DNA from: Balneolaceae bacterium
GTDB taxonomy: Bacteria > Bacteroidota > Rhodothermia > Balneolales > Balneolaceae
Direction: 5' to 3'
Length of the DNA stretch: 64,000 bases
Assembly (NCBI GenBank): GCA_020832285.1
Contig: JAFIFB010000017.1
Location: 1 to 64,000, forward strand
Part shown: positions 2,762-48,568 of the stretch, piece by piece
How positions within the stretch are numbered: position 1 is the stretch's first letter
Layout of the letters: every line of letters begins with the position of its first letter
Position numbers and translations under genes: made by a program
Notes under the pieces: generated by a model
Databases searched by the model: none
What the model was told of the DNA's origin: nothing
What the model saw: the letters and a program-made list of their open reading frames with translations, nothing else

Positions 2762-3638
2762 TTAATCAAACATATCCTCAAAGGCTTTTTTTGTGTCAGG
2801 TGCAGGTGTGGTAAAAAGGCTGACAATCCAGGTTGCAAAGAGGGCGGTTATGAATCCGGGAATTAACTCATAAAGAGAGTCTCTCAATACCGGGGTATAA
2901 TACCAGGCTATGGTGACGATTGTACCAGAAATGAGGCCGGCGAAAATTCCGGCGCGAGTGGTTTTTTTCCAGGAGTTCGGTAAGCCCGCCAACGTTTAAT
3001 ATTGCGATGATGGGAAGAATTACCAGGGCAAGAATCATAAAAATGGCCTGAATCATATCGGTGAGACTGACCGCAAGAGATCCTCCAACAATTGTATATA
3101 CAACAACAATCAGGGTCGTTATCAGAATCCCGGTATTCATTTCCAGCCCGAATCCAGAAGCGAATGCCTTGCCTCCGGCCACAAACTGTGCAGAAATATA
3201 GCCGATCATAAAAATTAAAAAGATGGCCACGATGGTGATCCGCAATTTTCCATCGTGATCCCCAAAGCGTTCGGCATAAAAGTCGGGAATGGTAATACAG
3301 TCACGCTTCCCGGTAAAATTCCTCAGTCTCCGGGCGTAATAGAGAAACAGGAACAGTTCTACTACAATGTAGCCTGCAACCGCCCAAGCAGCCGATGGCC
3401 CCTGTGCGTAGGCCATACCCGTTACACCCAGCAAAAGCCAGGCACTCCGGCCCGAAACCACTGCTGAAAGGGCAACCACAAACCGGTTCATTTTTCTGCC
3501 GCCGATAAAATATTCGCTGATTCCTTTTGATGAGAATTTTGTTGAATAAGCCCCAATACCGATCAGCAATAGCAGATATCCAACAAAAGCGGCCACAGCA
3601 TAAGCATCAAATTCAACGGTAAGCTGCACTTCATCCAT
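2762..3638 (-). pseudogene. Sodium:solute symporter (SSS/PutP-like) with internal deletion and frameshift
   Basis: Reading leftward from an ATG at 3638 (MDEVQLTVEFDAY), the first ~215 codons encode a good N-terminal half of an SSS transporter: GISEYFIGGRKMNRFVVALS, SGRSAWLLLG, IPDFYAERFG, GGSLAVSLTDMIQAIFM. At NVGGLTELLEK (about 2960-2990) the frame leaves the family. A second frame, 2762-2992, encodes the C-terminal piece WKKTTRAGIFAGLISG to the normal end. SSS proteins are usually about 480-550 residues and these two pieces sum to under 300, so roughly 200 central codons are missing and the join is out of frame. A sequencing error cannot explain the missing length. The transporter is almost certainly dead. 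Confidence 0.85.
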
Positions 3639-3726
3639 CGCTCTCGGCATCTTTTTTTGCAAGCCAGAATGCCGCTGCAATGATGATAGCAGGAAGAACA
3701 AACATCACAAAATAGAATGAGGCCAT
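3631..3726 (-). CDS. Symporter small accessory protein (31 aa)
   Basis: A 31-codon frame starting ATG at 3726: MASFYFVMFVLPAIIIAAAF followed by WLAKKDAESDG. It is one hydrophobic helix with a charged C-terminal tail. Its stop overlaps the symporter start (ATGGATGA, 3631-3638), the arrangement expected for translational coupling. Tiny single-helix partners preceding SSS and NSS transporters are known. It survives although its symporter is broken, so it is probably a relic, unless it acts with another transporter. Too short for standard gene finders. Confidence 0.65.
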   Translation of the reverse strand: MASFYFVMFVLPAIIIAAAFWLAKKDAESDG

Positions 3727-7889: not shown

Positions 7890-8232
7890 AGTGGACAAAT
7901 TTTCAAACTTGATTCGGGCTCTGTGTTTTACTTATATAATCTTGTTTAACTGCTTTAAGATCGAATTCAGAATATATCATTGATTTATGAATCCCAATGA
8001 TCTAAGTATTGAAGTGTTCGTTTTTTAATAGGTCATGAATTTTCTGATGAACTTAAAGGCCAGATTATCACCATTTTTGTATCTGTTTAGCAACCTGATT
8101 GCGTGCCAGTGTTTTTATGGTCCCAATCCCTCAAAGAATTAACAAAGATATATTTATTTTCTGAAATTGAATTTCGAAATCCGAATCGACCTGATAATAC
8201 AATCACATTAACCAGGAAGCGGACTTAAAATT
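7890..8232. other. Intergenic gap without recognised gene
   Basis: 343 bp between the DJ-1 gene and the 3' end of the beta-propeller gene on the opposite strand. AT-rich, stops in all frames. I see no hairpin with a T-run, no RNA gene and no repeat shared with the rest of the window. Confidence 0.5.
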
Positions 8233-9687
8233 TCACGGTCGGGTCAAATCAACGATACGCTTAAGGTCAAAATCAAGAAACGCATAACCTCTCCCGTCCA
8301 TATTCCCTCTGTGGTCGGCCGTAAAAGATAAAATATTGGTTTCCTGTAACCGGCGCTTATCAGGTTTTGAAACATCCAAACCCGTAAACTCAGGGCCGGT
8401 CAGTCGCAAACTTTGCCATTTTCCCCACTGATCCTCCTCTCGTGCAATATGAGATATAAAGCCTTCATTGCTCAGAAAGTAAACAACAACCGTATTGTCA
8501 GGGGCAACCGCAATCATCGGACGTCCGGCGCTTACCGGCTTTGGCAAAGGTTCACTGCGATGCCACTCTCCCTGGTTATCCCGCCAGTAATGATAGTAAT
8601 TCAGTCTGTATCGCACCTCTACCGGCGGGCTATGCTGAAGGTCATCTGGTTCGAAGGTTTTTTCCATGTGAAAGGTAGCCACATGAGGATTATTGTGCGA
8701 GTCCAGGGTCATCCCACCCTGGTTCATCAACCATGAAAATACGGGGATATCCCACACTACAATACCAGGGGAATTGATCGTAATGACCTCACCCTTTCGG
8801 GTGTCAGAAATTATATCCCCGACATTATTATTCCAGGTACGTCCCTTATCATCGCTGTAAGCATAATGCAGATCATGATTGCTTGCCCATGTGGCATAAG
8901 TTTCCCGGTATACCCAGGTGATATGCAGCCGGTTATTGCTGTCAAATACAAGATCATGCATATAGGCGTTGCGCGATTGGCTGTTGTCCCACTCGGCATA
9001 CTCGCCCTCCAAACCAAATAGTTTGTCGGTGATCAGCATCCAGCGGCTTTCTACGCCATTATATTCAAAAAAGGCGATGTTACCGCTGCCGCTTCCGCCA
9101 CTACGGTAAAAGAAGAAAAGGTTGTCATCATGATCATTCAGAAAACGGGGGTAGGTAACGCGCTGGGGTGCCCCTTCCATTACGGGCTGACGTGGTTCAA
9201 AATCACCAGCACTGATATTTTCCGGCGGATTGGTTATTAATCCTTCTCTGCTGCGCGTATAGTTTAAATCGTTGGCGTGGTGATCCCAGGCGAGGTGAAG
9301 TCTGCCGTCCTCAGGGCTAATACCGATAACCGTGTTACGGTGACCGTTTCGTTGCTGCTCTTCGCTCAGCCCCTCTGCAAGAATATAATCTTCCAAACGC
9401 ACCGTTAGAACCTCATCTTTGTTTAGGTTCCTCCGTGTGAGGGTCAACACCCTGTCAGCATTCCAATATATGCTGTACTGATAGCCGCCGTAACTGATTA
9501 CCTTATCCTGGTCAAAGGAGGCCCAATTAATATGCGGCCATATATCTTCATCGGCGATCACTGTCTGATCCGGTCCAACCGGAGGGAGGTCATCCGGATT
9601 AGACTGCGCGAATACAGCTTTATTTCCAATGGTCATGGCCAACATAACCATTCCGGTAACCTTCAACATCTTAGCTATCGACATCAA
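8233..9687 (-). CDS. Exported BNR_4-family beta-propeller, candidate PL25-type ulvan lyase
   Basis: 484 residues with a signal peptide (cleavage after about residue 27, AVFA-Q). The body is a BNR_4 seven-bladed propeller: repeated DGRLHLAWDHH, NRLHITWVYRE, DDKGRTWNN, DSHNNPHVATFHME. His116/His136 (20 apart) and Tyr179/Arg195 (16 apart) reproduce the spacing I recall for the catalytic residues of the PL25 ulvan lyase PLSV_3936 (His123/His143, Tyr188/Arg204), and Tyr242 could match its last tyrosine. BNR_4 proteins also include uncharacterised members, so lyase activity on ulvan or another uronate-rich polysaccharide is a hypothesis. No other polysaccharide gene is adjacent; the next gene upstream is ribBA. 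Confidence 0.75.
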   Translation of the reverse strand: MMSIAKMLKVTGMVMLAMTIGNKAVFAQSNPDDLPPVGPDQTVIADEDIWPHINWASFDQDKVISYGGYQYSIYWNADRVLTLTRRNLNKDEVLTVRLEDYILAEGLSEEQQRNGHRNTVIGISPEDGRLHLAWDHHANDLNYTRSREGLITNPPENISAGDFEPRQPVMEGAPQRVTYPRFLNDHDDNLFFFYRSGGSGSGNIAFFEYNGVESRWMLITDKLFGLEGEYAEWDNSQSRNAYMHDLVFDSNNRLHITWVYRETYATWASNHDLHYAYSDDKGRTWNNNVGDIISDTRKGEVITINSPGIVVWDIPVFSWLMNQGGMTLDSHNNPHVATFHMEKTFEPDDLQHSPPVEVRYRLNYYHYWRDNQGEWHRSEPLPKPVSAGRPMIAVAPDNTVVVYFLSNEGFISHIAREEDQWGKWQSLRLTGPEFTGLDVSKPDKRRLQETNILSFTADHRGNMDGRGYAFLDFDLKRIVDLTRP

Positions 9688-9757
9688 AAAGAGCTTGATT
9701 AATATTTAAAATAAAAATCGTCTTTTCGCCAGGGCAGCATTAGATATCAGACGTAAG

Positions 9758-11608: not shown

Positions 11609-12739
11609 ATGAAAAAAATACTCTGCACTTTAATACTGTACTCACTGGCTTTGGTATTAATCGTCTCCTGCAGCCCGCAGGAAAACCCGTACTGGGGAGA
11701 TGGATCCGAAGCATTTGACGTTCAGGAGGTATTCACAGGTGAACGATTTCCCAATGTGGTGGTTGCTACAGACGGGAGCGTGATCGCCACATGGGGAAGC
11801 AACAGTTATCAGGTTCGCCGCAGTGAAGATGGCGGAGAGACCTGGGGACCGGTGATCACTGTGGCTGATCCCGGTTTTCATGGCGGTGGTGTTACGGTTG
11901 ATGAAAACTCTGGCAGTATTCTGGCTTTTGTTGAAGAGGGGCACCCTCCCTCTCCCATAACCGTTTATCGAAGCACTGATCATGGGGTTACGTGGGAACT
12001 TTTCGATGTAACCATTCATCCCGATGAAATAGGAAACGTACCCTCAATGCATATGAATGAAAGAGGAATCACACTCAAACATGGTGAATATGCAGGTCGC
12101 CTGATACGTCCGTCGCGTTCATACGGCGAAGGGAATGATCGTGAGTTTTGGGATTCGCACTATACAAATGCAATTTACAGCGATGATGGTGGGGAAACAT
12201 GGCAAACCAGTGCTCCTTTTCCTGCATACGGAACCGGAGAAGCAGCTATCGAAGAGTTGTCTGACGGACGGCTCTACTACAATTCACGACGCCATCTTTC
12301 CACTGACGGGTTAACTCCTTTAATGAGACATATCGCATGGAGTGATGACGGGGGGCAGACGTGGGATAATCTTTCTGTATCGAATGATCTCCCAGACGGT
12401 CCGCAGGACACTGATTATGGTTTAATGGCAGGGCTTGTTCGCCTCGATATTGACGGCCATGATATTCTGGTTTTCAGCAATGTTGAGTCTGAATCCGGCC
12501 GGAATACCGGAACCATTTGGGCCAGTTTCGACGGTGGTCAAACCTGGCCGGTGAAACGCCTGGTTGAAGAAGGCGGATTCGCATACTCATCTCTTGCTGC
12601 AGGTAGGAATGGAACACCGAGCGAAGGCTGGATCTACCTGTTGTATGAAGGCGGCGATCCCTACGGCTATGCATACATGGCCCGGTTCAATCTTCCGTGG
12701 ATTACCGGCGGACGCGACTGGCGAGATTTTTTGGATTGA
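11609..12739 (+). CDS. GH33-type exo-sialidase-like lipoprotein
   Basis: 376 residues. A lipoprotein signal ends at LIVSC (Cys21), so it should be anchored in the envelope. Five Asp-box repeats S-x-D-x-G-x-T-W are visible at about residues 72, 122, 191, 245 and 306, typical of six-bladed sialidase propellers. Candidate active-site residues follow the GH33 order: Arg46 in GERFPN (in place of the RIP motif), Glu211 in GEAAIEELSDG, Arg227, Arg298 and Tyr326 in FAYSS. The substrate could be sialic acid or a related glycan (KDN, KDO). It stands alone, without nan genes. Confidence 0.8.
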   Translation: MKKILCTLILYSLALVLIVSCSPQENPYWGDGSEAFDVQEVFTGERFPNVVVATDGSVIATWGSNSYQVRRSEDGGETWGPVITVADPGFHGGGVTVDENSGSILAFVEEGHPPSPITVYRSTDHGVTWELFDVTIHPDEIGNVPSMHMNERGITLKHGEYAGRLIRPSRSYGEGNDREFWDSHYTNAIYSDDGGETWQTSAPFPAYGTGEAAIEELSDGRLYYNSRRHLSTDGLTPLMRHIAWSDDGGQTWDNLSVSNDLPDGPQDTDYGLMAGLVRLDIDGHDILVFSNVESESGRNTGTIWASFDGGQTWPVKRLVEEGGFAYSSLAAGRNGTPSEGWIYLLYEGGDPYGYAYMARFNLPWITGGRDWRDFLD

Positions 12740-47710: not shown

Positions 47711-48568
47711 TTATCCTTCGTATGCCCGCACGGTTTGTTTCGAAACTCCCAGTCCATCGATGCCGAGTTCCACTTCATCACCGGGTTTGAGATATTGCGG
47801 GGGAGAGAATCCAAGACCGACACCGGCCGGTGTTCCGGTTGAAATAATGTCGCCGGGATGGAGTGTCATAAATTGTGAAATGTAGCTTACCAGAAAGGGG
47901 ACCTTGAAAATAAAGTCGGCCGTTGAACCATCCTGTTTCATTTCTCCGTTAACTTTGAGCCAGAGACGCAGGTTATCCACATCTTTAACTTCATCTTTGG
48001 TGACAACAAACGGCCCGATAGGTGCGAAGGTGTCGCAGCTTTTGCCTTTAACCCACTGGCCGCCGCGCTCAAGCTGGAACTCCCGCTCGCTATAGTCGTT
48101 GTGAACGCAGTAACCGGCCACATAATCCATCGCCTCTTTTTCGCTGACGTAGCTGGCTTTTTTCCCAATCACAACGGCCAGCTCCACTTCCCAGTCACTT
48201 TTTTTGCTGTTTTTGGGAATTACCATATCGTCGTTTGGCCCCACAATGGCAGAGGTGGCTTTAAAGAAGAGTATGGGTTCTGCAGGAATATCCATACCGC
48301 CTTCTTTGGCGTGATCAGCGTAGTTTAGTCCTACACAAACAATTTTGCCGGTATTAGCTACGGGCGGGCCCAAGCGTACTGTGTCGGCTACTTTCGGGGC
48401 GGAATCAGCATTGGAGCCCAGCCATTTTCCCAGCTTTTCGAGTCCGCCAGAGCTAAAAAACTCCGGGTCAAAATCATTTGTAAATTCAGATACATCAACT
48501 TTTGTCTTTTCATTGATGATGACGCCGGGCTTTTCTGCACCCGGATTTCCAAAACGGATCAGTTTCAT
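47711..48568 (-). CDS. FAH-family hydrolase, probable 2,4-diketo-3-deoxy-L-fuconate/rhamnonate hydrolase
   Basis: Fumarylacetoacetate hydrolase fold, 285 residues: KIVCVGLNYADHAKEGG, metal-binding DWEVELAVVIG, YCVHNDYSEREFQLERGG followed by QWVKGKSCDTFAPIGP, and ISTGTPAGVGLG. This NDYSERE/KGKSCDTFAPIGP subgroup contains the diketo-deoxy sugar acid hydrolases (for example LRA6) that split the last intermediate into pyruvate and a 3-carbon hydroxyacid. It is flanked by two SDR genes, exactly as the pathway requires. Confidence 0.85.
   Translation of the reverse strand: MKLIRFGNPGAEKPGVIINEKTKVDVSEFTNDFDPEFFSSGGLEKLGKWLGSNADSAPKVADTVRLGPPVANTGKIVCVGLNYADHAKEGGMDIPAEPILFFKATSAIVGPNDDMVIPKNSKKSDWEVELAVVIGKKASYVSEKEAMDYVAGYCVHNDYSEREFQLERGGQWVKGKSCDTFAPIGPFVVTKDEVKDVDNLRLWLKVNGEMKQDGSTADFIFKVPFLVSYISQFMTLHPGDIISTGTPAGVGLGFSPPQYLKPGDEVELGIDGLGVSKQTVRAYEG

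Follow-up and report, generated by a model that had tools for sequence, protein, structure and literature searches.

A BNR_4 propeller protein of a Balneolaceae bacterium as a probable PL42-like L-rhamnose-α-1,4-uronate lyase distinct from PL25 ulvan lyases

The analysed window is a stretch of 64,000 nucleotides of contig JAFIFB010000017.1 from a Balneolaceae bacterium, and the gene studied here is an intact open reading frame for a protein designated P0001 (Table 1). Codon 1 is a TTG, and codons 2 and 7 are ATG. A Pfam search gave BNR_4 as the sole family, which together with the intact frame bears out the BNR_4 propeller named in a preliminary description of this DNA. The N-terminus, with a hydrophobic run followed by ...AVFA/QS, resembles a Sec signal when judged by eye, in line with the signal peptide proposed there. 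An AlphaFold model calculated from a two-row alignment had a mean pLDDT of 40.8, too poor for judging the fold geometry.

Table 1. Features of the P0001 locus and residues of its putative active site, with positions in the window
Feature	Positions	Strand	Basis
P0001, BNR_4 protein, 484 aa, probably secreted	8233..9687	-	intact ORF
BNR_4 domain, P0001 residues 69-378	8554..9483	-	Pfam, 1.6e-63
Sec-like N-terminal stretch, P0001 residues 1-27	9607..9687	-	by eye on translation
Insert, in whose place G017 has 59 bp of different sequence	7918..9755	.	genome comparison
Tyr66, at GH145 posterior His48 position	9490..9492	-	alignment
Asn114, at FoRham1 Asp83 position (His-bridging Asp)	9346..9348	-	alignment
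His116 = FoRham1 His85 / PLSV_3936 His123, putative base/acid	9340..9342	-	alignment
His136, second His named in the preliminary description	9280..9282	-	variable column
His137 = FoRham1 His105 / PLSV_3936 His143, true second His	9277..9279	-	alignment
Tyr179 = FoRham1 Tyr150 / PLSV_3936 Tyr188	9151..9153	-	alignment
Arg195 = FoRham1 Arg166 / PLSV_3936 Arg204, putative carboxylate neutraliser	9103..9105	-	alignment
Tyr242 = FoRham1 Tyr202	8962..8964	-	alignment
Arg261 = FoRham1 Arg220	8905..8907	-	alignment
Asn322-Gln323 = FoRham1 Asn275-Gln276, rhamnose subsite	8719..8724	-	alignment
Arg389, probably BT3686 Arg333 / FoRham1 Arg331	8521..8523	-	inferred by counting in alignment

The gene is neighboured by ribBA (assigned by eye), a PfpI gene and a gene for a BNR_2 protein. 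It stands alone: no operon or PUL around it and no adjoining sulfatase gene were seen in the window. The congeneric genome G017 shares the gene order and has a 98% identical ribBA; there, PfpI and ribBA are adjacent at a distance of ~100 bp, and P0001 is absent at the site. Gain of P0001 is the simplest reading of this empty site, as opposed to loss in G017; the G+C content of the gene (0.482) is close to that of ribBA (0.485). Among other features of the window, a second BNR protein (Pfam BNR_2, 11609-12739) lies close to P0001 and is retained in G017 (94%), and an ORF at 2868-3701, judged by eye, starts out like a sodium/solute symporter (N-terminal half) before its character shifts, perhaps through a frameshift. 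Elsewhere in the source genome, locus L061 (C70:1-19900) is a uronate-glycan PUL with two BNR_4 proteins, a PL8 lyase, a DUF4962/heparinase-like protein and, by eye, SusC/SusD-like and sigma/anti-sigma-like genes.

Searches of the PDB with P0001 gave the best matches to PL42/former GH145 proteins (5mum, 1.2e-30; 5muk, 4.8e-30; 5mvh, 8.2e-30), and the structure of the PL42 enzyme FoRham1 (7esl) matched at 1.9e-27. An hhalign comparison of the P0001 clade with three PL42-type proteins yielded a probability of 100 (E 2.2e-41), with an identity of P0001 to PL42 proteins of ~30% or less in the aligned core. The top NCBIfam model was that of the BT3686 α-L-rhamnosidase (NF052497), with 153.2 bits and thus below the curated cut-off of 700. 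The closest relative in the collections searched was WP_248910474.1 from Halocatena marina (34.7% identity over 98% of the query, E 7e-68), followed among haloarchaea by a protein of G697 (34.1%), a genome from the sample of Halocatena's order; both blastp matches extend over most of P0001. A scan of genome_contigs with two short patterns returned Halocatena only, and five scans of viral_contigs one weak, partial relative. According to an excerpt of PMC12343721, a PL42 gene occurs in natronoarchaea, so that archaeal PL42 as such is already in print; a passage of PMC13193363 mentions a few archaeal sequences homologous to PL25.

Two BNR_4 proteins from other sources were noted in the course of these searches. 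Plasmid pAlt76 of Alteromonas sp. 76-1 encodes a FoRham1-like BNR-4 protein (L032:19764-21287, 9e-33) with a His spacing of 21 residues; it is flanked by sulfatase-like and glycosyl hydrolase genes, and the same plasmid bears the PL25 enzyme ULA-3. The 1335-amino-acid tail spike of Klebsiella phage MY01 (PP056534.1, L101:1181-5188) contains a BNR_4 domain (residues 953-1219, 145.5 bits), which has PL42/GH145 as nearest PDB match (3e-22) and retains the PL42 core residues. By its sequence, the spike is a candidate lyase-type capsule depolymerase; a literature search matched 18 papers, and the term 'BNR' is absent from the eight of them that were listed.

For phylogenetic analysis an alignment of 42 rows was used, comprising P0001, 34 related ORFs and seven reference rows. 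Five of the 39 related-ORF matches (one from L066, one from L055, two from L064 and one from L065) were excluded as weak, partial, or copies of PL24 references, and the divergent BNR_4 proteins L004 and L005 of the source genome lay outside this set. P0001 and the two haloarchaeal proteins formed a clade in three trees (100/98, 100/99 and 99/98). In the 42-row tree this clade (100/98) fell on the same side as the FoRham1, PL24, Streptomyces and Alteromonas rows and was split from Bacteroidota PL42 (100/97); clade and split were again obtained without the PL24 and PL25 rows (100/99 for the clade, 100/98 for the split). The rows of BT3686, BACINT_00347 and FoRham1 comprised the stretch matched in the PDB search, which weakens their placement, and the deeper branching order is uncertain because of long branches. 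A grouping of the P0001 clade with FoRham1 alone was not recovered in the tree, and AU tests on a 19-row tree rejected neither a clade with FoRham1 (p=0.358) nor one with PL24 (p=0.361).

The P0001 lineage was rare in all samples. It was present in 1 of 128 genomes of the order (13 others matched P0001 at ≤136 bits, versus 964) and 1 of 244 genomes of the class at 1e-40, in both cases the source genome. The same genome was the only one at 1e-50 among 385 of the phylum, and in samples around Halocatena the lineage occurred in 2 of 293 (G470, G697) and 1 of 392 genomes (G470); for some genomes of the 385- and 392-genome samples the counts refer to the part of the first-look candidates that was scored. 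Sulfatase and GH78 rhamnosidase genes lie near the Halocatena relative, and genes for a PL11 rhamnogalacturonan lyase and an MR_MLE protein near that of G697. Near both are genes for a luciferase-like protein (G697 by Pfam, Halocatena by eye) and an IclR regulator (annotated in Halocatena, by eye in G697). These genes favour a rhamnose-uronate substrate generally, and not ulvan specifically.

The residues of the putative active site were assigned by alignment, with their roles taken from passages of PMC8377490 and PMC10951650. Seven of the eight FoRham1 residues that were examined by mutation according to these passages (Asp83, His85, His105, Tyr150, Arg166, Ser170, Tyr202 and Arg220) are retained in P0001, where Ser199 corresponds to Ser170. 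His116, His137, Tyr179, Arg195, Tyr242 and Arg261 align with residues reported there to impair FoRham1 when mutated. This supports a lyase-type anterior site on a BNR_4 propeller, as had been suggested for this protein, but not its assignment to PL25 (see below). In the His-His-Asp triad both His are present and the Asp is replaced by Asn114. The passages report 13% remaining activity for FoRham1 D83N, with more at higher pH, and none detected for D83A and D83E (PMC8377490/PMC10951650). Asn at this position also occurs in L007, L008 and L030 of the 42-row alignment, which keep the other core residues. FoRham1 Tyr26 corresponds to Phe58.

At the rhamnose subsite, the Asn-Gln pair is present in 32 of the 42 rows, including FoRham1, BT3686 and P0001, and missing from the three PL24 rows and the PL25 row, which carry other pairs; in the nearest relative, from Halocatena, it is Asn-Ala, and in the Alteromonas row Asn-Ser. 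The FoRham1 row ends short of the Arg389 column, and the equivalence to Arg331 was inferred by way of BT3686 Arg333; this column holds Arg in the PL25 row, too, and is thus alone no mark of PL42. The position of the posterior His48 of GH145 is occupied by Tyr in FoRham1 as well (Tyr34; PMC8377490). Compared with its two haloarchaeal relatives, P0001 has eight additional residues directly before His116 and 9-10 before Tyr364. Other BNR_4 proteins were seen to vary at these sites. L002 of the source genome and L013 of G017 have the His, Tyr and Arg and lack the second His, which by alignment is Arg or Gln, and the Asp is Gly; they are perhaps non-lyase propellers. L060:9389-10861 (source genome, C94) is a PL42-type protein that retains the GH145 His48.

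The preliminary description had based a PL25 assignment on the separations of His116/His136 (20 residues) and Tyr179/Arg195 (16 residues). All four residues are present at these numbers, and the separations stated for PLSV_3936 are right: the residues concerned (His123, His143, Tyr188, Arg204) agree with the relevant passage of PMC8377490. As a sign of PL25, however, the spacings failed. The column of His136 is variable, containing H, V, S, Q, M, E, L, R or G in the 42 rows; Halocatena has Val there, the PL24 rows have Met and PL25 has Gly. The adjacent His137 column holds His in 40 rows and Arg in the remaining two; the homologous second His is therefore His137, and the homologous spacing in P0001 is 21, versus 20 in PL25. 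A His-His spacing of 20 was found in 34 rows and of 21 in eight, namely P0001, its two haloarchaeal relatives, one Streptomyces, one Alteromonas and three PL24-type proteins. Tyr and Arg are 16 apart (Tyr-x15-Arg) in 42 of 42 rows, comprising PL24, PL25, PL42 and relatives, and this distance is thus uninformative about PL25. Passages of PMC8377490 give separations of 20 (His85/His105) and 16 (Tyr150/Arg166) for the PL42 enzyme FoRham1 and of 20 for BT3686 (His90/His110). In 20000 shuffles of P0001, a His pair 20 apart occurred in 47%, Tyr and Arg 16 apart in 76% and both in 35%; both pairs in order with a gap of 30-60 residues between them were obtained in 4%. Spacing alone is weak evidence, and it is homology that counts; common to several BNR_4 lyase families, the 20/16 spacings are useless for assigning a substrate.

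A further, speculative proposal had linked P0001 to rhamnose use by a deoxy-sugar island at 43-49 kb, and this functional tie was dropped. About 33 kb of mostly housekeeping-looking genes (by eye) lie between the two. The FAH-type hydrolase of the island (47711-48568) resembles 2,4-didehydro-3-deoxy-L-rhamnonate hydrolase with 360.6 bits, under the cut-off of 500, and was found at 1e-80 in 10 of 40 genomes including the source genome. It thus occurs without P0001 in 9 of 39 sampled relatives: searches of these nine genomes with P0001 or its profile gave PL42-type matches at most, and G017 with its empty site is among them. The rhamnose idea survives separately, through the genes near the haloarchaeal relatives and the closest characterised family, PL42, which frees L-rhamnose from uronate (PMC8377490).

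Taken together, similarity and aligned residues point to P0001 as a probably secreted BNR_4 propeller that is most likely an L-rhamnose-α-1,4-uronate lyase, PL42-like and not PL25, a reading that we favour with moderate confidence. By analogy to FoRham1, Arg195, aided by His137 and Tyr179, would bind and neutralise the uronate carboxylate, and His116 would abstract the C5 proton and give a proton to the leaving oxygen. The resulting syn-β-elimination would set L-rhamnose free and leave a 4,5-unsaturated uronate. Asn322, Gln323 and Arg389 may grip the terminal rhamnose, and retention of this rhamnose-binding set makes exo-action likelier than endo-cutting of ulvan. For two Bacteroides GH145 members that lack His48, an excerpt of PMC8406133 reports that they still freed rhamnose from wine AGP via the anterior site.

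The same His/Arg chemistry would also serve a PL24-like lyase, or one of endo type, that attacks a sulfated polymer of rhamnose and uronate, for example ulvan; we consider this rather improbable. The His spacing of 21 is shared with the three PL24 rows, a clade with PL24 was not rejected in the AU test, sulfatase and GH78 genes accompany the Halocatena relative, and the FoRham1-like Alteromonas relative resides on a plasmid bearing a PL25 enzyme. However, similarity to PL24 is weak, with a PDB match to Uly1 at 7e-9 over residues 172-320 and a blastp match at 4e-7 over residues 2-291 of 484. Moreover, P0001 has the Asn-Gln pair of the PL42 rhamnose subsite that PL24 rows are missing, and no sulfatase gene was seen next to it.

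Somewhat less probable still is a propeller of weak or lost catalysis that acts as a sugar-binding protein. The Asp to Asn exchange at position 114 could be read in this way, as could the loss of site residues in other BNR_4 proteins of the source genome (L002), the weak matches to lectin models (0.013 and 0.021) and the match of the C-terminal part to the CV39L lectin in the PDB search (8.5e-8). Against it, the two His, two Tyr and two Arg of the core are all retained, and Asn at position 114 recurs in three other rows whose remaining core is intact.

That P0001 is a PL25 ulvan lyase, as proposed at the outset, is highly improbable, and membership in this family was ruled out by similarity, zinc ligands, tree and His spacing. 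The PL25 residues His123, Tyr188, Arg204 and His143 do align with His116, Tyr179, Arg195 and His137 of P0001, but the PL24 and PL42 rows align with these columns likewise. The PL25 structures 5UAM/5UAS were absent from the 12 PDB matches to P0001 up to E=10, blastp against the characterised PL25 enzyme ULA-3 gave no match at 1e-3, and hhalign of the P0001 clade against ULA-3 gave a probability of 2.2%. Of the PL25 zinc ligands His208, His264, Cys266 and His278 (as given in the literature), none is present in P0001: Ser199, Arg261 and Thr263 occupy three of the positions, and the fourth sits in an insertion missing from P0001. In AU tests on the 19-row tree, grouping with the single, very long-branched PL25 row was rejected for the P0001 clade (p=0.017) and for P0001 alone (p=0.0016). 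The ulvan oligosaccharide dehydratase P29_PDnc was also considered; the accessible main text of its paper contains neither BNR nor propeller, and no link is claimed. A GH145-type retaining rhamnosidase acting at the posterior face is just as improbable, since the His48 of that site is replaced by Tyr66, even though BT3686, for which this activity is described in the literature, ranks among the best PDB matches.

Beyond the PL42-like lyase reading, we tentatively suggest, as a rather doubtful proposal, that P0001 and the two haloarchaeal proteins might represent a third lineage of propeller rhamnose-uronate lyases, one that spans two domains and is separate both from the PL42 enzymes of fungi and Bacteroidota and from PL24/PL25. 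Such a lineage would have been transferred between bacteria and haloarchaea and would act on a rhamnose-uronate glycan for which no family has so far been assigned. The main interest of P0001 is the rare bacterial-haloarchaeal clade together with Asn114. Activity of a member of this clade, so far seen in one bacterial and two haloarchaeal genomes, would show the reach of rhamnose-uronate lyase action in the fold, and would tell if a His-His-Asp motif with Asn is a functional variant that occurs in nature.

Compared with known systems, P0001 shares with the PL25 enzymes PLSV_3936 and ULA-3 the columns of the His, second His, Tyr, Arg and Tyr242, and differs in the absence of detectable similarity and of the zinc site, in the His spacing (21 versus 20) and in the rejected clade. 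The PL24 enzymes LOR_107 and Uly1 have the His spacing of 21, Tyr-x15-Arg and the subsite +1 Tyr and Arg in common with P0001, whereas they carry Glu at position 114, are without Asn-Gln and show weak, partial similarity. The Bacteroides PL42/former GH145 proteins BT3686, BACCELL_00856 and BACINT_00347 give the top PDB scores (~1e-30) and share the anterior catalytic residues; P0001 falls on a separate side of the tree (100/98, for BT3686 and BACINT_00347 only), lacks the posterior His48 of BT3686 and scores far under the cut-off of the BT3686 model. FoRham1 from Fusarium oxysporum (PL42, 7ESK/7ESL) has the same His/His/Tyr/Arg/Tyr/Arg core, the Asn-Gln subsite and Tyr in the His48 column, and P0001 deviates from it by Asn114 for Asp83, Phe58 for Tyr26, a His spacing of 21 instead of 20 and an additional loop before His116. 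Unlike P0001, its closest relatives, the Halocatena BNR-4 protein WP_248910474.1 and the G697 protein, have C-terminal extensions, in Halocatena with 3keto-disac_hyd over and FN3 under the cut-off, and are encoded near sugar-degradation genes.
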